From: Spirochaetes bacterium GWE1_32_154
Lineage (GTDB): Bacteria; Spirochaetota; GWE2-31-10
NCBI GenBank assembly: GCA_001829315.1
Contig: MIAY01000012.1
Location: 34,033 to 98,032 of the forward strand
Length of the DNA stretch: 64,000 bases
Direction of reading: 5' to 3'
Under the pieces are notes generated by a model. The model ran no database searches. It had not been told where the DNA came from and was given only the letters and a program-made list of their open reading frames with translations. The translations under genes and the position numbers were made by a program. Position 1 is the stretch's first letter. Every line of letters begins with the position of its first letter. This document shows, piece by piece, positions 20,805 through 55,721 of this stretch.

Positions 20805-21989
20805 ATGAATAAACTCAAAATCGTATTAACAATAATTGTTATAATATTTTTTACTATTTTACTACTTCTTTTTAGCCTATTATCTTCCTCTCAGAATGAG
20901 GAGAAAAAAACAAACGAAATAACATTATTATTCACCGGTGATTTAATGCATCATGAAATTACTTATAATATGCCGAATTATGACAAAATATATAAAAACA
21001 TACAAAGTCAAATTAAGAAAAGTGATCTTGCATTTATTAATATAGAATTCCCGATTAATTCATTATTTCCAAAATCGGGATATCCTTTTTTTAATGCAAC
21101 TTCTCAATATTTAGATGCTTGTATAAAAGCAGGCTTTTGTGTGTTCTCTCTTGCTAATAATCATATTAATGATTTTGGAAAAGAAGGTATTATTGGAATA
21201 CTCGATAGCATTCAAGAATCAATAGGGAATACTAATGAACGACCGATATTTTTATCAGGAGTAAGAAAGGATAAAAATGAAAACTTTAATTTAGAAATAA
21301 TAAAAATAAAAAATCTGAATATCGGATTTCTTTCAGTTACAGGATTTGTTAATACTGAAAGAGATAAAGAATACGTAGATATAGTTTCTTATCATAATAA
21401 AACGTTTAATAAAATAGATAATAGAGAAAGTATGAAATTTCTCGAAAGAGTACGTAAAATGCGATCTTTATGTGATTTCTTAATTATCAGTTTTCATGAT
21501 GGTTTAGAATATCAGGAAGAACCAGAGGAAATTCGAAAAAAAATTTTTCGCGAGTTAGTTTTAAATGGTGCAGATATTATATGGGGACATCATTCACATA
21601 GTGTTCAAAATACTGAGATAGTAGATAGAGGGCATTTAAAAAAAACTGATGGTCTAATTGTATATTCAACCGGAAATTTAATTTCAGGACAATTGGATTT
21701 CGATACAATGCCAGATTTAAAAAATCAGTTTTCTGCTACTGGTGATGGTGTCTTTTGGGAAGTGAAAATAAAGAAAAAATCAAATACAACTTTTATTAAG
21801 GTAATTAAACCGTATTGGATAAATAATTATTTAAACCAAAAAGATGGATTAGTTGTTTCATATACAAACTTATTATCAAAAAACAAAAACCTTCCCGAAA
21901 GATGGAAAAAATATTTTACTTATCGCCTTAAACAGCAAAAAAGGAATGAAAAGATAAGAAAATGGAAACCAGAGAACAATATCAAATAA
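20805..21989 (+). CDS. CapA family (PGA_cap-like metallophosphatase) protein, membrane anchored
   Basis: N-terminal TM; LLFTGDLMHHE, FINIEFPIN, FSLANNHINDFGKEGI, ISFHDGLEY, GADIIWGHHSHSVQ. Confidence 0.9.
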   Translation: MNKLKIVLTIIVIIFFTILLLLFSLLSSSQNEEKKTNEITLLFTGDLMHHEITYNMPNYDKIYKNIQSQIKKSDLAFINIEFPINSLFPKSGYPFFNATSQYLDACIKAGFCVFSLANNHINDFGKEGIIGILDSIQESIGNTNERPIFLSGVRKDKNENFNLEIIKIKNLNIGFLSVTGFVNTERDKEYVDIVSYHNKTFNKIDNRESMKFLERVRKMRSLCDFLIISFHDGLEYQEEPEEIRKKIFRELVLNGADIIWGHHSHSVQNTEIVDRGHLKKTDGLIVYSTGNLISGQLDFDTMPDLKNQFSATGDGVFWEVKIKKKSNTTFIKVIKPYWINNYLNQKDGLVVSYTNLLSKNKNLPERWKKYFTYRLKQQKRNEKIRKWKPENNIK

Positions 21990-22035
21990 TAATTATTACT
22001 TAACAAATCATAAAAAATAATGTATTTGGATAAAC

Positions 22036-22677
22036 ATGATTAATTATATAAAAACCAACCGGATATATATTCTTTTAATTTTTACTTTGAATATATCCTG
22101 TTTTAAACAAGATATGAATTCTTCTACTAACTCGGAACTTTTAAGAAAATATATACAAATAGCTAGAGAAGAAATTAATCTGCAATTTGAAACAAATAAA
22201 AATAAGAAATTTCAGGAAATTAATTACATTAGTAACAACCAAGGGGTTTTTGTCCGTTTACTGAAAAATGGAAAAGAACGTGGTTGTTACGGTTTTTTTA
22301 AAAATATAAATTCAATTGATGAAGCAATTAAAAAATCAGCTATAAATGCAGCATTTTTTGATCCAAGATTTCCTGAACTTACAGAAAATGAACTTGATAA
22401 AATAGAAATCCAACTAACTATAGTGGGTAAATTTGAAGAGTTACATAATAAAAAGCAATTTATTATTGGGAAAGACTCATTGTTAATTGATGATTATTCA
22501 AACAGAGGTATTTTGCAGGCTCCAATTGCAATAGAAGAGAATTATAATAAAACTCAGTTTTTAAAAGCCCTTTGTAGAAAAGCGAAGTTGAATGAAAGTA
22601 GTTATAAATTAAAATATACAAAAATTTATAAAGCAACTTCTTTATATTATAAAGAACCATTTAATATTGATAAGTAA
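22036..22677 (+). CDS. AMMECR1-domain predicted lipoprotein
   Basis: YISNNQGVFVRLLKNGKERGCYGFF, AINAAFFDPRFPELTENELDKIEIQLTIVG typical of AMMECR1; N-terminus IYILLIFTLNISC. Confidence 0.82.
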   Translation: MINYIKTNRIYILLIFTLNISCFKQDMNSSTNSELLRKYIQIAREEINLQFETNKNKKFQEINYISNNQGVFVRLLKNGKERGCYGFFKNINSIDEAIKKSAINAAFFDPRFPELTENELDKIEIQLTIVGKFEELHNKKQFIIGKDSLLIDDYSNRGILQAPIAIEENYNKTQFLKALCRKAKLNESSYKLKYTKIYKATSLYYKEPFNIDK

Positions 22678-23530
22678 AAAAATAACTTGTTATGTCATCG
22701 TCTGGTGTTTTTATATCAAAATTTTTTGCATTAGTATTGCTAAAAATATGAGTTTTATATACTCCAACTTCATTTAATGTAAAGAAAAGAGTAATTAGTC
22801 CTGCTGTATTATCTGAATGTATTGTATTTACTTTAACAGGATCAAAAGAATTAATAACTTTTTCAGAATATAAATCTCTTGATAAAGTAGTTTGAATATC
22901 TGCTCTATGAGAAAAATCAGTTGAAACTAAAATAAATACATTTCTATTTTTTTTTATTATTGTAGATAATTGAGTTGCAAGATCATTACATTTTTTGATT
23001 CTTTTATTGAATTGGTCAAATGATATAGGAACAATATCAGCTTTTGGAAAATACAATTTAATAAAAGGAACAATATCTCCGATTCCATGTTCATTATGAA
23101 ATGCATTATCATCTTCTTTCAGTTTAAGATTTGTTAAAATTGTATAAACATATTTTTTATTAACCTTTACAATTCCATTATTCGTTAACCAGGATTTTTT
23201 TGATAAAGATATAATTTCCTTACCTTGATTATAGTGATTGGGAGTTAATATAATAAATGTTTTAATATCTCTTAATTTTTTGAGTTCTTTAAACCACTGA
23301 TTCGTTATTGAGCCTACTAAAAGATGATGACTTACCGTTCCGGATACAGGAAATATATTTTCATCTGTTAATTCAATTTTTATATTATCAGGATTTTTTT
23401 TATTGATAGTTTGAATAAAATCTTTTTCCCGATAATAAGATGTTGTTGGGAAAAAGGAAATATCCCGGTGACACCCAAAAAGCGTCACCAGAATAATAAT
23501 CACTATTTTATGAGAATATCTTTTTCCCAT
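22661..23530 (-). CDS. Memo family protein (AmmeMemoRadiSam protein B-like), predicted lipoprotein
   Basis: VSHHLLVGSITNQWF, FIILTPNHYNQG, EHGIGDIVPFIKLYFPKADIVPIS, ILVSTDFSHRAD; lipobox-like VTLFGC. Confidence 0.83.
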   Translation of the reverse strand: MGKRYSHKIVIIILVTLFGCHRDISFFPTTSYYREKDFIQTINKKNPDNIKIELTDENIFPVSGTVSHHLLVGSITNQWFKELKKLRDIKTFIILTPNHYNQGKEIISLSKKSWLTNNGIVKVNKKYVYTILTNLKLKEDDNAFHNEHGIGDIVPFIKLYFPKADIVPISFDQFNKRIKKCNDLATQLSTIIKKNRNVFILVSTDFSHRADIQTTLSRDLYSEKVINSFDPVKVNTIHSDNTAGLITLFFTLNEVGVYKTHIFSNTNAKNFDIKTPDDDITSYFFTYQY

Positions 23531-26193
23531 TGGGGCATTCTCTCCATTAAATAACTTTCGTTTCCATTATTATAAACTTTTTCTTTCCACTGATCATTAT
23601 TTAGTCTGTCATTCATAGGATGTGGAAATTCATAGTAACTGAAAGTATATCCTTCGGCTATTCTTTTTCCGCCCTGTTTATCATTAATAGCAACATATAT
23701 TCTATTAGGAACTCCTACAGCAACTTCTATAACTACTCCATTATCACTATCAGTATGAACATCAGCAACGAGAGCCATCTGAAAGTCTTTTCTTTCTGTG
23801 TATCCCATACTTGAACCTGATGGGATAATAATATTTGCTAATCTATAAGGAATATCATAGATTAAGTCATTTTCTCTTTCTGAAATAGGTTCATCTGCAG
23901 CTTCTTTTTCTGCAATTATTACTATATCTGAAATTATTGATTTATAAGCTTCAAATTTACTGCTATACTCTTTTGTCATAAATCCTGATTCGGATATTAT
24001 ATCAACTGTGTCTTCAAGAATTGATTCAATCCAGTAAAGTGCATCAAGATTAGGTTCAATATAACCAATAGGTTTGTCTATAGCATCATATACCCATGTT
24101 TTTTCTGGTCCTTTTCCCGCTTTTTCTGCATAACTTTGTTTAACATAAAGTATAGTATCATGTCTTAATTCTGCCCATGCTCCATGTGCGGTTATAAGCG
24201 TTCTATTATTCCATTTTTCACTTTGAGTAAAATAAAAATTTCTATTTTCACCAAAATTTGCTGATTCTTTTATAACTTTCAAATAACTGTTAAAAAATGT
24301 TTTTCGCCAGTCCATTGTATCAAAACCTTCAACTTGTGTTTGAAGGGAAGCCAGTTTAGGAGCATATCCACCGTATATATCTTTATCCTCTTTAAGCAGT
24401 GTTTCGGAGAATTTATTTCCGAATGCAGCCATGATATCAAGTCCCTTAACCATGGTTCTATCAATTATTCTTGGCGCAGATAACTGATTATGTATAAAGC
24501 TATCAAATGTAAATCTTTGACCAAAAAGTCTGAATCCTCCTGGTATTTCCAAAGATTTCTTTTCTGAATCTTTTTGCTGTAATAATGTATTTCCAGAAAT
24601 CTTAGGAGGGGCAATATTAGTATTAGCATATTTAATAAACTCTTTCACATTATCCTCATTATCAATCCATAAGCCAAAGTTATCAAAATCGACATTTTTT
24701 GATACTTCTAAATATTGGTTTAAATTGTAGTCATCGGATTCACCAATAATATAGGTAATAGGATTGAATAATGCCTTCCACATTGCATAAATATTTTTAT
24801 TATCTTTTGTAATTTTTGTTAGTAAAAGTGCAGCTCGTGTTAATTTTACAGAATTTTCAATATCTTGAGGAGTTCCGGTAAGCTGAGCATAAAAATGAAG
24901 CCTGCCAAACCATATCATTGATTTAAAATATTTTTTTAAATTTTCATTTTTAGTATAATGACCTCTTGGTTTAAATTGTGAATAATCTTCCATGTATTTA
25001 AAAATTTCTGATTCACTAAAACCTTCTGCTTTTTCTATTTTATTTAATTCAATTAAAACATCGCCTGTTAAATCCCCGCCATTCATTTGAGATGTAACAA
25101 CTGACCCGCCTGCAAGGTTTCCACCAACTAAAAAATATTTTTGCATGAGTTCTATACTTTCTTTTAATTTAATATCATTTTCAGATAATGATGATTTCAT
25201 TTCTTCAAGTTTTTGATAATAAGCAATACAAAGCTTCTGTAATGTTGGAAACATTATTTTTGATTCAGTATCCTGAAGCATTTTGTCAAATAAAAGATGC
25301 AGGCTGTGTACTAAAAAATCAATTGTAATGTATGTATTTACCATTTCATCAGCATGTAAATTTTTATATAAAGCTACCATATCATCAGGATTTTCTATAT
25401 TAAGCTGATCCTGATATTCATAATAATTTACTGATTCTAAAGCAAACTTATCCTGTATAAGAGATTTTTTTATATCATCCGGGATATATCTTTGACCATT
25501 ATAATCAGTAAATTTATCGTTTTTATACGTATCATATTTATAATAATCAGCAACTTTTAAAAGGTTTTTTGTTTTACTATCCTCGTATTTTATATTTGAA
25601 GATTCTTTAGATATAAGATTTTTTACTTTATCACTTGTCAGAATATATGAACCAAATACATACCCATTTTTACCTTGGTATGCTACTTTATACCAATAAT
25701 TGTATTCACTATGAAATTGAAAAAAGTCAACAGTATCTCCAAATTCGTCCTCAGTTGGATTCTTATTAATAATTTCTTCTATTATATCAATTACACTTCC
25801 TCTAGGAAGTTCAGTAATTACATTATCAGCTGATAAATCACTATACATCTTAACATAATTTGTTGAAATTACTCCAAAAGAACCTGTAATTTTACTTGAA
25901 TCAATTGATTTAAAATCCAGTTCGTCTTTAAGATAAGATTTATCAATAGTATATTTACCGGTTTTAATATTTTTATTTTTTATTTTAATGTCATCATCTT
26001 CAAGTTTCTTAAGGATATTTTCTAAATCATCGGAATTTATTACTTCTTCAGTTTCAGTATCTGCTTCATCATACATATTATCATCGTTACTAATTTCATT
26101 TGAAACTGTTTTAATAGCTTTTATGCTTTCATTTTTTTTTTCACATGATAAACTAATAAACATAATTATTAATAAAGTAAGTATTTTTTTCAT
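23503..26193 (-). CDS. DUF3160 lipoprotein with N-terminal SH3-like region
   Basis: Lipobox ISLSC; NLHADEMVNTYITIDFLVHSLHLLFDKMLQ; overlaps the Memo gene by 28 bp. Confidence 0.78.
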   Translation of the reverse strand: MKKILTLLIIMFISLSCEKKNESIKAIKTVSNEISNDDNMYDEADTETEEVINSDDLENILKKLEDDDIKIKNKNIKTGKYTIDKSYLKDELDFKSIDSSKITGSFGVISTNYVKMYSDLSADNVITELPRGSVIDIIEEIINKNPTEDEFGDTVDFFQFHSEYNYWYKVAYQGKNGYVFGSYILTSDKVKNLISKESSNIKYEDSKTKNLLKVADYYKYDTYKNDKFTDYNGQRYIPDDIKKSLIQDKFALESVNYYEYQDQLNIENPDDMVALYKNLHADEMVNTYITIDFLVHSLHLLFDKMLQDTESKIMFPTLQKLCIAYYQKLEEMKSSLSENDIKLKESIELMQKYFLVGGNLAGGSVVTSQMNGGDLTGDVLIELNKIEKAEGFSESEIFKYMEDYSQFKPRGHYTKNENLKKYFKSMIWFGRLHFYAQLTGTPQDIENSVKLTRAALLLTKITKDNKNIYAMWKALFNPITYIIGESDDYNLNQYLEVSKNVDFDNFGLWIDNEDNVKEFIKYANTNIAPPKISGNTLLQQKDSEKKSLEIPGGFRLFGQRFTFDSFIHNQLSAPRIIDRTMVKGLDIMAAFGNKFSETLLKEDKDIYGGYAPKLASLQTQVEGFDTMDWRKTFFNSYLKVIKESANFGENRNFYFTQSEKWNNRTLITAHGAWAELRHDTILYVKQSYAEKAGKGPEKTWVYDAIDKPIGYIEPNLDALYWIESILEDTVDIISESGFMTKEYSSKFEAYKSIISDIVIIAEKEAADEPISERENDLIYDIPYRLANIIIPSGSSMGYTERKDFQMALVADVHTDSDNGVVIEVAVGVPNRIYVAINDKQGGKRIAEGYTFSYYEFPHPMNDRLNNDQWKEKVYNNGNESYLMERMPQWEKDILIK

Positions 26194-26273
26194 TTTATCT
26201 CCTAAAATTATTTTGTAATCATAATCTACTTAATTTCTCTTGTCAAATGGTATCAAAAATGTAAATTAAATCT

Positions 26274-27341
26274 ATGAATTATTTTTATTTTTTATTTATC
26301 TTAATTATTTTTTTATCATGTTCTGAAAATAATGAAATTATTATACCTCACATTGAAATTAAAAATGGTGGTATTCAAAAGGATTCATCTTATAAAAGTG
26401 ACCCCTATTATTTTAATGAATATAAAAATAAAAAATATAGTGATATCCAGCTTGATTCATTTTTAAGATCAAAACAGAATGTAAAAAGATATTTGTTAAT
26501 TTCAGGTATTGTTAAATATAGAGAAAATAAGTTTTTGAAAAATCATTTTAAATCAATTATAATTCAAATAATAAAAGATGATTATAATGAATATTTCACT
26601 TTTCCAATTGATAACTTTGGAAGATTTTCCGGATACTTATATTTTAAAAAGAGCGGTATAAATAAAGTTTATTTTCATAAGTTTTATGATTATCTTTCGT
26701 ATTATGGTGAAGATAAGATCAATAATTTTAACACGAGAGCCAGTTCCGGTTTGATTGTCAATGTTTTAGAAGCAATACCTTCAGAATTTTTATATTTATT
26801 ACCTACACAAAATATTGATTGCGGTAATGTAAATATTATTAAACAAAGTAAAGATATTGTTAAGAATGCACAAACAGATTTAGATAAGGCAAAAATGGTT
26901 TATGAATTTTTAATATTTAATAAAAACAATAGTAAAAATTTTTCTTTTAAGCAATACAAAAGCAACTATAAAGTGTATGGCGAATACGACTTTCACGTCA
27001 CTTATATAGCATCACAAGTATTATCCGAAAAAAACGGTGTTTGCAATGATTATGCCGAACTTTATGCAGCGATGATGAGGTCACTATGTTTCAAAATAAA
27101 AAAAGTTTGGGGATATTATAATGAATATAAAGAAATCGGGCATATGTGGAATCTTATTTCTATAAAGATTGATGGAAAAGAAGAATGGTATAAAGTTGAT
27201 CCATCATGGGGAAATATTGATAAAAATAATTATAAGAAATGGGCAGGCTTTTATAACGAGTATGATGAAGATTACTTTAACACAATGTTTGCACCGTATA
27301 ATCATTCTTCTTTTAATTATCTATTTAAGGAAGAATATTAA
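26274..27341 (+). CDS. Transglutaminase-like (papain-fold) lipoprotein
   Basis: Lipobox IIFLSC; catalytic-type motifs NGVCNDYAELYAAMMRS, GHMWNLISI, VDPSWGN. Confidence 0.83.
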   Translation: MNYFYFLFILIIFLSCSENNEIIIPHIEIKNGGIQKDSSYKSDPYYFNEYKNKKYSDIQLDSFLRSKQNVKRYLLISGIVKYRENKFLKNHFKSIIIQIIKDDYNEYFTFPIDNFGRFSGYLYFKKSGINKVYFHKFYDYLSYYGEDKINNFNTRASSGLIVNVLEAIPSEFLYLLPTQNIDCGNVNIIKQSKDIVKNAQTDLDKAKMVYEFLIFNKNNSKNFSFKQYKSNYKVYGEYDFHVTYIASQVLSEKNGVCNDYAELYAAMMRSLCFKIKKVWGYYNEYKEIGHMWNLISIKIDGKEEWYKVDPSWGNIDKNNYKKWAGFYNEYDEDYFNTMFAPYNHSSFNYLFKEEY

Positions 27342-28213
27342 TGAATATATGTCGTTTCTTTAATAAAACAATAATTTACTTTATAGTTTTTTTTATATCT
27401 TATGAATTATACTCTAATGAAAAATTTATATTACCAAAGAAACATCTTAATAAACAATATTCGTTTTTAAGTTGTAAAGTAGATAGTTTATATTACGCAT
27501 TACAATATTATATTGACGATTTACCAAATGAAGAATGGTTTATTAATCAAATTCCAATCAAAAAAAATAAATATATAAAGATTACTAAGGAAAATAATTA
27601 TCAGATTGCCTCTCCATTTGATTTTTGTATTGGAGGACTTAATTTTCAATTAGCACGGTTTTCAGATTTAAATAGATTATTACTATATACTCCTGGTGGT
27701 TACAAAGAACCGATTTATGATAAAGAGGGATTTTTGGATAATGCAAAATTAGAGTTATATTATAATAAAAACATTGGATTTGGAATTGATATTAAATTAC
27801 TTTTAACGATTTTCAATCAATATCTTAAAAATAATAGTATATTAATCAAACAGTTTTATTCAGAAACAGGAAGTATAAATGATATGGTGAATTACTTTTC
27901 AAATGAAATAAAAAAGGGAAATGTAATTTTATGTAATGGTATTGTTGGTGGTTATCAACGTAGAAAAGTTATCGTTTTTAATATAATTAATACAAAAAAT
28001 TATTATTACTGGAAAGAAGCTACGCATAGTTTTGTTCTTATTGGATATGATTTTAATAATAAAACATTTATAGCTGCAGACAATTTCGGTACTTTAGATA
28101 AACCGTATTTTCCAGAATTTAGAGAAATTAGTTTTGAAAATCTTTATGAACAATTAATTATGATTGATAAATATAGTTATGATTTCAGCATTAGTATTGG
28201 TAAAACAAGATAA
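27341..28213 (+). CDS. Exported C39-like cysteine peptidase domain protein
   Basis: Signal-like N-terminus; YSFLSCKVDSLYYALQYY then ATHSFVLIGYDFNNKTFIAADNFG. Confidence 0.6.
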   Translation: MNICRFFNKTIIYFIVFFISYELYSNEKFILPKKHLNKQYSFLSCKVDSLYYALQYYIDDLPNEEWFINQIPIKKNKYIKITKENNYQIASPFDFCIGGLNFQLARFSDLNRLLLYTPGGYKEPIYDKEGFLDNAKLELYYNKNIGFGIDIKLLLTIFNQYLKNNSILIKQFYSETGSINDMVNYFSNEIKKGNVILCNGIVGGYQRRKVIVFNIINTKNYYYWKEATHSFVLIGYDFNNKTFIAADNFGTLDKPYFPEFREISFENLYEQLIMIDKYSYDFSISIGKTR

Positions 28214-28769: not shown

Positions 28770-30362
28770 CTATTCTTTAGCCACCGGAACTTCAAGAGGT
28801 TTCATAATCTCATTAAATCCAACTAAAACGTTCACGAAACATTTACCAATCGGTGCAATTTCTGAAATATTCTCCCACGGTCGTACATAAATAATGTTTA
28901 TATCTGATACACCTTGTTTAATAGCTTTAAAAACTAATATTTGCTTTCCACCTGCTCCACAGATTTCTTCAGGTACCAGATCACCAACATAATCACTTGA
29001 TATCAATTCAAGAGTACTTTCATAATTCAGGTTTTCAAATACCCATGAGTATCCGGTTGTAGGATTTGATTTAAGAATGAGAGTAAGTGTATCGTTTTCA
29101 TTAAGTTGTATTGAATTAATTGATTCGCCATATTCTGAAGCCTCAATCGTATAATTTTTTACAGGATATTCAACCGGAGTAAAACCGAACTCTGTTTTTG
29201 CATAATTCCATACTTTTAGTTCATCGATAAGAAAACTTCCTGTAAATGCAGAACTTATTTGCCCGATAGAAAGTTCACCATCCACTAATGCGTCAAGTTT
29301 TGTTGCTGTATGATTTGTTTCATTGCATATCAGACTGCTACCGACAGGATTACCGTCTTTGTAGATTTGTACTGTTTCGTTTGTACCATCAACACCGTCA
29401 ATATTCCAAACTAAAGCAAAATGATGCCACGCCGTAACATCACCAAGTACCTCACCATACGAATATGAGTTAGTATATTCACCGGAAGCAACATTTCCAT
29501 TACCACCCCATCCGCAAAGACCGGCTCCGCCCCAACCATCATTTCCATTTATCATTAATGAATAATTTGAACCTTCGCTATCGCCGGCTATCAGAAATGC
29601 CGGGTTTCCCAAAGTTAGAATAGCATCACTATCAGCAACACCTTCAAGTTTCGCCCAGAACTCTATTGTTCCCTTATCTGATGTAACTACTTCTTTAGGA
29701 AAAGTGATACCATTATTATTGCCTGCCGTTACCTGGTATGCACCGCCTTCTTTACCAGTTGTAAAATTGTCATTTATTATTGTTCCTGAAAGACCGAAAA
29801 CAGGTTTAGTAACTGATGTTGCATCATCAAGTGTCGTATAAAGAACTAATCCGTCTTCACGAGCCTCAATTACCTGAGCTGTTGCAAAACCACCGGGTAT
29901 AATCTGAAGTGTTGTAATAAAACCGCTTATGATTGAAAAATCTTTAGTTTCTGTTCTTGTAACCGTATCATTACCATTAACACCAGTGTGAGTTACTGAA
30001 ACAGTATAATTTCCCGGTTCAGATAATTCTACATTCAAGTAACTATCCCCCTCTACGATTGCCCAAGTGGTTTCTGCAAGAACTTCTTTGGTATCGGTAT
30101 TGCTGATGATTATATCCAGTCGCGTAACTTCGTATGTTTTTGTTATAATAGCCCGGGTTATTTCCGGTGACTTAATTGAAATAACAAGATTCGGATTGGA
30201 TGCGTTTAATGTTATTTTACCTTTTACCGGTTTTTCAATACTTGTTTGTGTTGTCTGACTTTTGTCATTGAAAGCAGTAGAACATGACACTGTCATAAGC
30301 AGACATGTTGATAGGATGCTTGTGATTTTCATTACATTTTGTAATACGTTTTTTCTGTACAT
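28770..30362 (-). CDS. Lipoprotein with LamG-like domain and C-terminal chagasin (I42) inhibitor domain
   Basis: LMTVSCS; LamG region TIEFWAKLEG...WHHFALVWN...FLIDELKVWNYA; chagasin motifs NPTTGYSWVFE, AGGKQILVFKAIKQGVSDINIIYVRPWE. Confidence 0.85.
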   Translation of the reverse strand: MYRKNVLQNVMKITSILSTCLLMTVSCSTAFNDKSQTTQTSIEKPVKGKITLNASNPNLVISIKSPEITRAIITKTYEVTRLDIIISNTDTKEVLAETTWAIVEGDSYLNVELSEPGNYTVSVTHTGVNGNDTVTRTETKDFSIISGFITTLQIIPGGFATAQVIEAREDGLVLYTTLDDATSVTKPVFGLSGTIINDNFTTGKEGGAYQVTAGNNNGITFPKEVVTSDKGTIEFWAKLEGVADSDAILTLGNPAFLIAGDSEGSNYSLMINGNDGWGGAGLCGWGGNGNVASGEYTNSYSYGEVLGDVTAWHHFALVWNIDGVDGTNETVQIYKDGNPVGSSLICNETNHTATKLDALVDGELSIGQISSAFTGSFLIDELKVWNYAKTEFGFTPVEYPVKNYTIEASEYGESINSIQLNENDTLTLILKSNPTTGYSWVFENLNYESTLELISSDYVGDLVPEEICGAGGKQILVFKAIKQGVSDINIIYVRPWENISEIAPIGKCFVNVLVGFNEIMKPLEVPVAKE

Positions 30363-51212: not shown

Positions 51213-54200
51213 CTACTCTGCTTTTTCTATAATAATTACACTGGCTCCACCATCAGTAAATGATACACTACCACCTGAAACTGTAGCTGTGGCTCCTGTA
51301 TATGCATCACGCACAAGTGTGCCGTCTGCGAACATACCTGCAACACTTATTGAACCGCCACCATTTAATTTTATAACAACTTTATCTTCAACACCATTTT
51401 TACTATAACTTCTACCATATGTGCTATTACCTAAATCAGTTTGTGAACCGGCTCCGACTGCCACATGATCTCTTCTGAAACTACCGACTTTCTGCCAGTG
51501 TACAAGAGTATCAGGATTCTGATTCCAGTTCATCTTGCTTCTCCAGCCCGGCTCTCCGCCAACTGATGCAGGTCTTGCTGTTTCATCACCATAGAATACC
51601 TGAACACCACCCGGAGACAAAACTAACGCTGTTCCAAGGTTTCTCATATCCCCTCTACCTAAACCTTTATCATGTGAAGAAATGTAGCTTAACACATTAA
51701 AAGTGCTGTCATTATTTATAGCATTCGCATAATATGCCCATGTACTTCCGATAGAACCAAGATTTCCGTCTTTTGGAAATTGAAAATTGATTATTGAATC
51801 AAGTTTTCCTTCTGTAAATAAATTTGATTTATTTACACCATGATCATACGCTTCACCGGTCATCCAGAATTCAGCTGTAGGATCAAGTAAAATACCGGGA
51901 TTAGTCTGTTTTACATAATTAAACTCGGATTTACATGTTTCAGCTAAATCTCTTACCGATGCAATATCGAGATTATTAACCGTATCAAGTCTGAACCCGT
52001 CAACTCCGTATTTACGGATCATATCAGTCATCCATTTAATCATATAATTTCTTGAAGTTCGTGCTTTACCGGTTCTTGAAAAGAAAGCATCAAGTTCCGC
52101 TTTTTCTTTTATATACTTAGCACTTCCAGTACCACCCCACTTTGTCACTAAAACAGGTGGTATATCAACGATCTGTGATGACTCAGTTTTAATATCGGGT
52201 AAATTAAAGTTATACTGTCCTAATACACCTGACCCCATTGGATCATATCCGCCACCGACATCATTTTTTCTAACCCATGAAGGACCATACCATTGAGCCC
52301 AATTAGACGTAGTAAAATCCATTTTTGGTGCAAGTCCTGTATCCCATGACGCAGTTGCATCAGTAGCATTGAAATAATATGTATCCCACCCTGATTTCAA
52401 TCCGCCGTAATTGAACTCACTCATATCTTTCATATTTTCATATCCAAGATGATTTATAACAATATCAACAACGACTCTAATTCCTTTTTCGTGAGACGCA
52501 GCAACAAAATCTTTGAATTCCTGCTCAGTTCCCATATTTGCATCAATTTCTGTGGGATCCAAAACATAGTAACCATGGTAACCATAATGTTTAAATGAGC
52601 CGTCAGGTCCGCCACCGGCAACCCATCCGTGAATCTGTTCTAACGGGGAAGTTAACCAGATTGCATTTATACCAAGATCAGTAAAATAATTATCGGTTAC
52701 TTTTGACGTTAAACCTTTCAAGTCACCACCATTAAATGTTCCCGGTCTGTTTTCATAATTAGAACCTGATATTGGAGTTCCATTCTGAGCTGATTCTCTT
52801 CCATATGAATGATCATTTGCAGTTGTTCCATTAACAAATCTATCAGTTAAAACAAAATAACAGTTAATATTATCCCATGAAAAAACTGATTTAGGAGCAA
52901 TACCTTCTGTAAAGGTATATAATTCTGTTGCTACCCCTTCTCCATTTTCAGCTGACATTTTTAAAACAACAGTACTGCCTGTACTCAATGTTATTGAAAT
53001 AGAAGTTCCATCAGTAAATGCAATACCCGATACGGCAGGATCAGAACCATTTATTGTATATTTAGAATTCGTAACACTTTCACCACTAACATTAAGGGTT
53101 ACTGAATAGGTACCTGCCGGTTTAACACCACCTGCAGGTGTTGCTGAAACTTTTGGTAATTGCGGACCGACATCGTCAGGTGTACCTGCTTTTTTACTTC
53201 CATCTGCATACCATGTAGTAGTTTCAGTAGCCAACTGATCATCAGCTGTTTTCTTTGTACCGTCTTTTAATACTAAGTAATTGATTTTTGTCTGATTAAC
53301 AAATAAAACAGTGTAATAATGAGCTTCTTTTCCAATAACTATTTCAACACCACCGGCAGTAAGTGTCACAGGCGTTGCCAGACTTTTACCCGGCCATGCT
53401 CCAAGTAATGCAATGTTACCGTCAAGCCATGCGTATAATTGATTTCCAAATGTTTCATCCACAAATATTTTAATGCCTTCAGGAGCTGCAGGACTAACAG
53501 TTAAGCTATATGCAGTACTTTTCATACCTGATTTTTCTGCATAGACAAGCACTGTTCCTTCTTTTAAAGCGGTTAGAGTACCGTCATAAGTAATTGATGC
53601 AATTGTTGTATCACTTAATTCCCAATTTACATCTTCACTGCTAATACCAGTATCATATTTTGCTTCACCGGTAAATCGATATACTTCACCAACAGTCATT
53701 GCAGGTTTTCCATATTTAACAATAACACTTGTAAGAACCGGCATTGTTTCTCCGGTAATTGTATAATTTGCACTTGTTACAGAAGAAACCGGCACAGCAC
53801 CATCATATGCAATAACCTTTACTGTATAATCACCTTTAAGCAATGATACAGGAACACCGTTATATTGTGTTGATGTATTATCAGGTAAAGAACCATTTGT
53901 TGTATAATAAATCTCAGTTCCTGTTTCATCGCAGGTGAATGTTAAACCCGGAAAATCTGATTCTTTTTGTGTTCTTAATTCGGGTAAAATTGTCAATGTA
54001 GCAATTGTTATTATAAAATTAGAACTGACAACAGGAGTAATTTCAACTCCATCACAATATGCGATTGCTTTTACTGTATAATTTCCTTTCGATAATGCAA
54101 CAGGAACACCTGTATATTTTGTTGCATTCATATCTGGTGTACTTCCATTTGTTGTATAAAAAATCTCGGCCTCAGCATCATCACAACTAAATGTTAAACC

Positions 54201-55721
54201 AGGAAAATTTGATTCTTTTTGGGTTGTCAATTCAGGTAAAATTATCAATGATGATGTTGTTATTGAATAATTTGAAGTAACAATCGGAGATGCTTCTATT
54301 CCATTAAGATACGCAATTGCTTTTATTACATAATCACCTTTTGCTAAAGAAATAGTACCACTGGTATATTTTGTTGAATTTTTATTCGGTGTAGTTCCAT
54401 TTGTTGTATAATAAATCTCAGCCAACTGATCTTCAAATGAAAATGACAATCCGGGGAAATCAGATTCTGTATAATTTTCTAATTCAGGCAGAATTGTTAA
54501 AGATGAATTTGTTATCGAATAATATGTACTGACAACATCGGATTCTTCAAAACCTTCAACAAAAGCAATTGCTTTTACAGTATAGGTTCCTTCTGATAAT
54601 GAAACAGCACTTCCTTCATATAATGTAGAATTTATATCCGGAGTATCACCATTTGTTGTATAAAAAATTGTAGCAAGTGCGTCTTCTGAGGTAAATGTTA
54701 ACCCCGGAAAATTTAATACCGTATAATTAGTTGATCCGGGTAAAATAACTGGAGTTTTAGCTTTTTCAACATTTCCTTCAATCACAATAGTCTCAGAAGC
54801 AACTTCTGATAATTGACCATTATAAGAAGCAACTGCTTTTACGATATATGTTCCTATTGTGTCAATCTGAAATGGAGTTGAATATTGATTACTGATTTTT
54901 GATGGAACAGAACCATCCAAAGTATAATATATCACAGAATCTTGAGTCCCGCATTCTATAGTAAAAGCCTGTTCAACACTATAACTTCCACTTAAAGGAC
55001 TAATAATTGGTGTTGCAATTGATTCACTAACAATAAACTCTTTTTCAAAAACAACTGAATCATCCATTCCATCAGCTTTTGAAATAACCTTTAATGTATA
55101 TGTCCCGGCTTCCAATGAAAATGGTTCCGTATATTCAATACCGGTTAACGGGTCGGAACCATCAATAGAATAATAATAAACAGCATTATTAGTTTTGGTT
55201 TCAAAGGATATTGTATTATCAATCGATATTTTTTCAGATGTCGGTGTTACAGCAACCGGTGTGACTTTTTTCTGTTTCAATACAATTTTTAGAATTTTTA
55301 ATTCGGATACCGCATCAATTGTAATCGTTCCCGTTTGACTTTGATACACTGAAGAAAAATCATCTAATGCATTTACTTCATAATTCCATTCACCAATATT
55401 TACATTTTCCAATAAAACATAATCAGAAAAACTTGAAATAGTCTGTTCAACAGTTAGTTCACCAAAGTTTGCTTTAAAATGTATAGAACTGATATAACCA
55501 TTACCTGAAACACTAACAGGATATTCAGAATCACCTATAATTTTTATTACAGCAGAACCTTTAGCTGACGATTGTGGAGTATCCGTTGTATTACCCGGAT
55601 CATTAATATTTGTACATGAAAAAACAGATAAGATAATCAGTATTAGAAAAACACCTAACGTTTTGATTTTTATTCGCATTTTATTATATCTCCTAATTTT
55701 AGAATTACTAAAACATAGCAT
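51213..55721 (-). CDS. Secreted multi-domain GH13 alpha-amylase lipoprotein with chitobiase/hexosaminidase-like repeats, Ig-like region and CBM26-like module
   Basis: GH13 motifs VVDIVINHLG, DGFRLDTVNN, FWMTGEAYDHG, ISSHDKGLGRGD; repeats of LTFxxxxxxAEIFYTTNGSTPDxNxTxYxGxxVxLxKGxYTVKAIAY. Confidence 0.9.
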   Translation of the reverse strand: MLCFSNSKIRRYNKMRIKIKTLGVFLILIILSVFSCTNINDPGNTTDTPQSSAKGSAVIKIIGDSEYPVSVSGNGYISSIHFKANFGELTVEQTISSFSDYVLLENVNIGEWNYEVNALDDFSSVYQSQTGTITIDAVSELKILKIVLKQKKVTPVAVTPTSEKISIDNTISFETKTNNAVYYYSIDGSDPLTGIEYTEPFSLEAGTYTLKVISKADGMDDSVVFEKEFIVSESIATPIISPLSGSYSVEQAFTIECGTQDSVIYYTLDGSVPSKISNQYSTPFQIDTIGTYIVKAVASYNGQLSEVASETIVIEGNVEKAKTPVILPGSTNYTVLNFPGLTFTSEDALATIFYTTNGDTPDINSTLYEGSAVSLSEGTYTVKAIAFVEGFEESDVVSTYYSITNSSLTILPELENYTESDFPGLSFSFEDQLAEIYYTTNGTTPNKNSTKYTSGTISLAKGDYVIKAIAYLNGIEASPIVTSNYSITTSSLIILPELTTQKESNFPGLTFSCDDAEAEIFYTTNGSTPDMNATKYTGVPVALSKGNYTVKAIAYCDGVEITPVVSSNFIITIATLTILPELRTQKESDFPGLTFTCDETGTEIYYTTNGSLPDNTSTQYNGVPVSLLKGDYTVKVIAYDGAVPVSSVTSANYTITGETMPVLTSVIVKYGKPAMTVGEVYRFTGEAKYDTGISSEDVNWELSDTTIASITYDGTLTALKEGTVLVYAEKSGMKSTAYSLTVSPAAPEGIKIFVDETFGNQLYAWLDGNIALLGAWPGKSLATPVTLTAGGVEIVIGKEAHYYTVLFVNQTKINYLVLKDGTKKTADDQLATETTTWYADGSKKAGTPDDVGPQLPKVSATPAGGVKPAGTYSVTLNVSGESVTNSKYTINGSDPAVSGIAFTDGTSISITLSTGSTVVLKMSAENGEGVATELYTFTEGIAPKSVFSWDNINCYFVLTDRFVNGTTANDHSYGRESAQNGTPISGSNYENRPGTFNGGDLKGLTSKVTDNYFTDLGINAIWLTSPLEQIHGWVAGGGPDGSFKHYGYHGYYVLDPTEIDANMGTEQEFKDFVAASHEKGIRVVVDIVINHLGYENMKDMSEFNYGGLKSGWDTYYFNATDATASWDTGLAPKMDFTTSNWAQWYGPSWVRKNDVGGGYDPMGSGVLGQYNFNLPDIKTESSQIVDIPPVLVTKWGGTGSAKYIKEKAELDAFFSRTGKARTSRNYMIKWMTDMIRKYGVDGFRLDTVNNLDIASVRDLAETCKSEFNYVKQTNPGILLDPTAEFWMTGEAYDHGVNKSNLFTEGKLDSIINFQFPKDGNLGSIGSTWAYYANAINNDSTFNVLSYISSHDKGLGRGDMRNLGTALVLSPGGVQVFYGDETARPASVGGEPGWRSKMNWNQNPDTLVHWQKVGSFRRDHVAVGAGSQTDLGNSTYGRSYSKNGVEDKVVIKLNGGGSISVAGMFADGTLVRDAYTGATATVSGGSVSFTDGGASVIIIEKAE

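Follow-up and report, generated by a model that had tools for sequence, protein, structure and literature searches.

Can proteins of the Memo and AMMECR1 families function outside the cytoplasm, apart from the radical SAM enzyme that is their usual partner, and if so, together with which other proteins? This question is raised by a block of six genes from Spirochaetes bacterium GWE1_32_154 (GTDB lineage Bacteria; Spirochaetota; GWE2-31-10; assembly GCA_001829315.1, 4.03 Mb in 43 contigs), which the original prediction had regarded as one extracytoplasmic system. Both families range from archaea to humans and are disease-linked, and a conserved exported pair that is separate from radical SAM would allow the Memo/AMMECR1 reaction to be studied in isolation.

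Gene content, layout and export signals

The window, i.e. the whole stretch of DNA that was analysed, comprises 64,000 nt (contig MIAY01000012.1, positions 34,033-98,032, forward strand). The locus studied extends from 20805 to 28213 in the numbering of the window and contains the following genes:

20805-21989, plus strand: CapA-like metalloenzyme, TM-anchored (Pfam PGA_cap 1.6e-51); accessory, 46 bp upstream of AMMECR1
22036-22677, plus strand: exported AMMECR1, 213 aa (Pfam 2.1e-33); frequent but optional member, convergent with Memo
22661-23530, minus strand: exported Memo, 289 aa, probable lipoprotein (Pfam Memo 2.3e-19, TIGR04336 4e-27); core gene
23503-26193, minus strand: DUF3160, 896 aa, probable lipoprotein with predicted N-terminal SH3b-like domain (Pfam DUF3160 3.1e-156, SH3_3 3.9e-4); core gene
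26274-27341, plus strand: Transglut_core (papain-fold) lipoprotein (Pfam 4.5e-13); local accessory, divergent from DUF3160
27341-28213, plus strand: C39-like (papain-fold) exported protein (Pfam Peptidase_C39_2 2.5e-4, weak and under the curated cut-off); local accessory

The six open reading frames lie where they had been predicted, and Pfam and NCBIfam confirmed their families, with the reservation given for the C39 match. The coordinates likewise agree with the predicted overlaps of 17 bp between the 3' ends of AMMECR1 and Memo and of 28 bp between Memo and DUF3160, as well as with the abutment of the transglutaminase and C39-like genes, which have one base in common. The short convergent overlap of AMMECR1 and Memo recurs (17 bp in G082 and G006, 23 bp in G004). 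Compared with the other genes of the window, the block is AT-rich, with a coding GC of 0.254 vs 0.329 (sd 0.038) and a GC3 of 0.161 vs 0.232 (sd 0.035), which could reflect lateral gain or lipoprotein bias. Near both papain-fold genes, at 28770-30362 (minus strand), the window encodes a lipoprotein-like protein in which LamG is combined with a cysteine-peptidase inhibitor domain of the chagasin type (I42). A protein of 1502 aa at 51213-55721 (minus strand) carries an alpha-amylase domain together with repeats of Fn3-associated and chitobiase C-terminal domains. A phage defence function of the locus was rejected, as none of its six proteins matched a PADLOC model.

Spirochaete lipoboxes have a relaxed form, and lipoboxes of this type, together with hydrophobic N-termini, were recognized in Memo (LFG/C), DUF3160 (SLS/C) and the transglutaminase (FLS/C). 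The lipoprotein signals that had been predicted for these proteins and for AMMECR1 are plausible for the first three, whereas AMMECR1 has a signal-like N-terminus with an imperfect lipobox (LNIS/C, Asn at -3). The calls were made by a simple rule, which flags 52 of 59 exported-type Memo reading frames and 1 of 30 canonical Memos. Judged by their N-termini, it is plausible that the proteins of the locus are exported.

DUF3160 and an exported Memo form the core of the module

The genome-neighbourhood survey had been set beforehand as the test that could refute the prediction, and it found the DUF3160-Memo linkage, with export signals, in other genomes. In two family searches over 101 genomes, DUF3160 adjoins a divergent Memo in nine, including the source genome. 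All 24 exported-type Memo matches (E<=1e-50) from 298 spirochaete genomes are located less than 300 bp from a DUF3160 gene, whereas the canonical Memos of the same genomes are not (comparison by eye). A profile scan of public genomes yielded 61 spirochaete loci; the contig continues in 58 of them, and 55 of these 58 have Memo on the downstream side of DUF3160, in many different surroundings and in one case after a 1.8-kb gap. The pair was also found in a Synergistales genome (L129) and in one unclassified bacterium (L127). It is thus well supported that the core of the module consists of DUF3160 and a distinct exported Memo subfamily.

The idea that all six genes belong to one system had to be rejected, because the transglutaminase and C39-like genes are not conserved neighbours beyond the closest relatives: the transglutaminase gene is conserved only in L060/L068 and L061/L069, and the C39-like ortholog only in L060/L068; of the nearest relatives, G006 shares both genes and G004 the transglutaminase gene alone. 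Another C39-like gene, recognized by eye, adjoins exported AMMECR1 in L173. The predicted neighbourhood is therefore reduced to DUF3160-Memo, with AMMECR1 and CapA as less strongly conserved members; the two papain-fold genes are local. Neighbour clustering revealed no gene family besides AMMECR1 that recurs across unrelated contexts, in accord with a Pfam scan of 136 flanking proteins.

The window AMMECR1 belongs to the AMMECR1 family of AmmeMemoRadiSam (TIGR04335, 107.8 bits, cut-off 99), and the RGC motif is invariant in exported AMMECR1. Of the 61 spirochaete loci, 23 have a linked exported AMMECR1, which is convergent downstream of Memo in 9, divergent upstream of DUF3160 in 13, and part of a Memo fusion in one. 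This exported fusion protein of 491 aa (L078:4747-6219) supports a contact between Memo and AMMECR1. As the DUF3160-Memo pair also occurs without exported AMMECR1, for instance in several complete genomes (T. putidum and the T. denticola-like G025 and G036), AMMECR1 is frequent but not obligate. T. putidum, T. denticola-like and other such genomes have a cytoplasmic LigB-AMMECR1 fusion (LigB-like in the T. denticola-like genomes, L163:586-1989).

In at least 11 loci, mostly from Treponema, exported AMMECR1 carries an extra N-terminal domain of ~280 aa (e.g. L095:5284-6759) with the motifs DRHGLS, LLDYHHD and TLDFD. Its sequence links to arginases are weak, and its predicted structure (pLDDT 83.5) suggests an arginase fold: 50 of the 50 PDB matches listed by Foldseek are ureohydrolases (best E 1.3e-5), at modest TM-scores of 0.3-0.4. 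Thus the Treponema AMMECR1 fusion, but no protein of the window, has what marks the ureohydrolase superfamily, namely a predicted arginase fold and the motifs DxHxD and DxD.

For CapA, a more than accidental association is indicated by its recurrence beside DUF3160 or Memo: among spirochaetes, CapA adjoins one of the two in L103 and L140, and it directly follows DUF3160 with overlapping ends in three of three Deinococcus species and in Bacteroides finegoldii. The CapA link is uncommon in this group, however, and few genomes have CapA or papain-fold genes next to the module.

The putative metal site of exported Memo and the conserved residues of DUF3160

The window Memo belongs to the Memo family of AmmeMemoRadiSam (TIGR04336, 95.1 bits, cut-off 26), and exported and canonical Memos are separated with a support of 97/94 in a tree that is read without a root. 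The putative metal site of human MEMO1 consists of His49, His81, Asp189, His192 and Cys244 (PMC9477392). In 34 aligned exported Memo proteins, H99, H148, D205, H208 and D240 are invariant; the first four correspond to the first four residues of the human site, in line with the predicted retention of the His/Asp-type motifs, and D240 takes the place of the ACG-motif Cys of canonical Memos in the alignment, so that this Cys is exchanged for an invariant Asp. PDB searches with the Memo sequence, singly or as profile, gave no meaningful match. Two further Memo-like proteins were noticed: Treponema-like genomes encode another type of exported Memo lipoprotein, without DUF3160 (L067:8089-9747, 552 aa), the extra C-terminal part of which has no Pfam match, and in a small, Borrelia-sized genome a divergent Memo-like protein adjoins pyruvate kinase (L066:8555-9211, Pfam E 4.4e-10).

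The window DUF3160 protein matches PF11369 with 522 bits (cut-off 25) over profile positions 5-624 of 632 and clearly belongs to this family, members of which have been called secreted enzymes in archaea (PMC4158269). Its AF2 model is confident (pLDDT 85, pTM 0.84) and predicts an SH3b-like domain at the N-terminus next to a large domain composed mainly of helices. At E<=0.001 the model matched no PDB structure, and a PDB sequence search gave no meaningful match. High-probability partial fold matches included an endolysin, dipeptidyl-peptidase VI proteins and isolated SH3 domains, and we read the endolysin and peptidase matches as matches to their SH3b parts; matches to membrane proteins were dismissed as chance. 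Across phyla, many polar positions show no or almost no variation (D292, H296, E310, R410, H412, R560, D564, H678, E713 and others), a pattern as would be expected for an enzyme. With Memo and CapA, the widespread DUF3160 family gains its first consistent partners.

Radical SAM is absent locally but present in the genome

The claim that the locus lacks a radical SAM gene holds for the window in so far as a TIGR04337 search of the source genome gave no match there. It cannot be extended to the whole genome, as the search that had been recommended for a partner elsewhere detected an AmmeMemoRadiSam radical SAM gene on another contig, at C8:143591 (274 bits, cut-off 220). This gene has no AMMECR1 or Memo beside it and thus lacks the linked partners of the AmmeMemoRadiSam set. 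As the genome also holds a non-exported AMMECR1 (C1) and two non-exported Memos (C15, C17), the AMMECR1 and Memo of the window are an additional set with export signals, and it is only locally that radical SAM is absent. The Memo on C15 (L003:1471-2301) has changed motif residues (PNASY, TNLSN) and may be degenerate. Over-cut-off radical SAM genes of this kind were found in 26 of 31 module-bearing genomes, the other five being MAGs that are possibly incomplete. The encoding of exported Memo and AMMECR1 next to DUF3160, a large, enzyme-like protein, suggests that the two can act as an envelope enzyme without their usual radical SAM partner.

Proposed function and alternatives

We tentatively propose, at somewhat less than an even chance, that DUF3160 and Memo, in many cases with AMMECR1, constitute a membrane-anchored, metal-dependent envelope complex that modifies peptides or proteins. 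DUF3160 and exported Memo would be the core pair of a spirochaete envelope module. Exported AMMECR1 may join this pair, and certain lineages would add CapA, papain-fold proteins or an arginase-fold domain. Memo and AMMECR1 would form a metal-dependent catalytic pair that is anchored outside the cytoplasm, the SH3b domain could, judged by its fold, dock the DUF3160 complex at the cell wall, and DUF3160 itself might serve as enzyme or as specificity subunit. The substrate may be a peptide, a protein or the peptide moiety of the envelope; this is suggested by the optional partners, whose folds belong to classes known from peptide chemistry, i.e. the arginase fold of OspR, the calcineurin fold of MslH, and the papain fold. 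Related peptide arginases convert peptidyl arginine to ornithine (PMC10028609), and MslH uses its calcineurin fold for peptide epimerization (PMC10406935). In combination with the SH3b-like domain, these partner folds favour a wall-docked complex that modifies peptides or proteins. As many hosts are Treponema from anoxic habitats, a hydrolytic or acid/base reaction is likelier than a dioxygenation. An extracytoplasmic, substrate-modifying complex as originally predicted is plausible. Whether a new class of envelope enzyme is at hand, in which DUF3160 and exported Memo-AMMECR1 act wall-docked and metal-dependently on peptides or proteins without radical SAM, is more doubtful; if this were true, the Memo-AMMECR1 reaction itself would be open to study outside the cytoplasm.

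Which other explanations have to be considered? Memo and AMMECR1 could be degenerate paralogs that merely bind or sequester metal as non-catalytic lipoproteins, with the activity residing in DUF3160. The dispensability of AMMECR1, the occurrence of DUF3160 without Memo in other phyla, and the finding that human Memo1 is a Cu(I) binder which, in vitro, shields against the redox activity of copper (PMC9477392) would agree with this, but the metal-site residues would hardly be invariant in 34 divergent Memo proteins, nor would the RGC motif be kept in AMMECR1, and we therefore consider such a degeneration rather unlikely. A catalytic Memo could also be an oxygen-using, extradiol ring-cleaving enzyme, in which the Cys-to-Asp exchange restores a LigB-like 2-His-1-carboxylate iron site for the oxidation of an aromatic or phenolic envelope substrate. 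The His, His and Asp of that site align with the Memo ligands, and the Memo fold is homologous to that of non-heme iron dioxygenases (PMC9477392). This reading is nevertheless improbable, since the recurrent neighbours include no aromatic-degradation family and since the module is common in Treponema of rumen and mouth. Rumen and oral Treponema live without oxygen, and oxygen use is unlikely in such anaerobic hosts.

The two remaining explanations dispense with a separate module. The window proteins could be the A and B subunits for the radical SAM enzyme encoded elsewhere, as NCBIfam names both of them AmmeMemoRadiSam A and B above cut-off and as that enzyme is present in the genome. However, radical SAM enzymes require SAM and a reductant of the cytoplasm, separate non-exported copies of AMMECR1 and Memo are available there, the exported Memos are a subfamily of their own in the tree, and five module genomes, albeit MAGs, have no over-cut-off radical SAM, which makes a spread-out set of this kind very improbable. 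Least of all can we believe in a neutral synteny accident without joint function. The six-gene order is indeed confined to close relatives, but many spirochaete families retain DUF3160-Memo despite the turnover of flanking genes, and AMMECR1 is linked in differing orientations and by fusion; for the core pair, neutral synteny is already contradicted.

Comparison with known systems

No description of the module was found in the literature searched. Memo-AMMECR1 systems were described by Burroughs et al. 2019 (as cited in PMC7159879), a work outside the coverage of that search that may mention related cases.

With AmmeMemoRadiSam (TIGR04335/04336/04337), the module shares the AMMECR1 and Memo families, both over the NCBIfam cut-offs, and Memo-AMMECR1 fusions. 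It differs in its probable export, in its separate Memo subfamily with Asp in place of the Cys ligand, and in the linkage to DUF3160 and CapA, with radical SAM unlinked. Human MEMO1 and the class III extradiol dioxygenases (LigB) have the Memo domain and the His/His/Asp/His positions in common with exported Memo, and the invariant and aligned H99, H148 and D240 could correspond to the 2-His-1-carboxylate metal site of the latter enzymes. At the position of D240, MEMO1 has Cys244, the dioxygenase homologs have Glu and exported Memo has Asp, and unlike MEMO1 and LigB, exported Memo would reside outside the cytoplasm.

The CapA-like protein shares the PGA_cap domain with the CapA/PgsA family and has a weak similarity to the epimerase MslH (39 bits, cut-off 700). 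In contrast to both systems, it is linked to DUF3160, no capsule or lasso-peptide genes were seen nearby, and capB and capC of capBCA are missing among the Pfam-scanned neighbours. The arginase-fold domain predicted in the Treponema AMMECR1 fusion shares DxHxD and DxD with the peptide arginase OspR and the C5orf22 family (PF12640), but it is exported, fused to AMMECR1 and without a Pfam PF12640 match. For DUF3160, the near full-length match, the export signal and the conserved polar residues are common to the archaeal proteins (PMC4158269) and the window protein, whereas the latter has a predicted N-terminal SH3b-like domain, and the gene linked to DUF3160 is Memo in spirochaetes but CapA in Deinococcus and Bacteroides.
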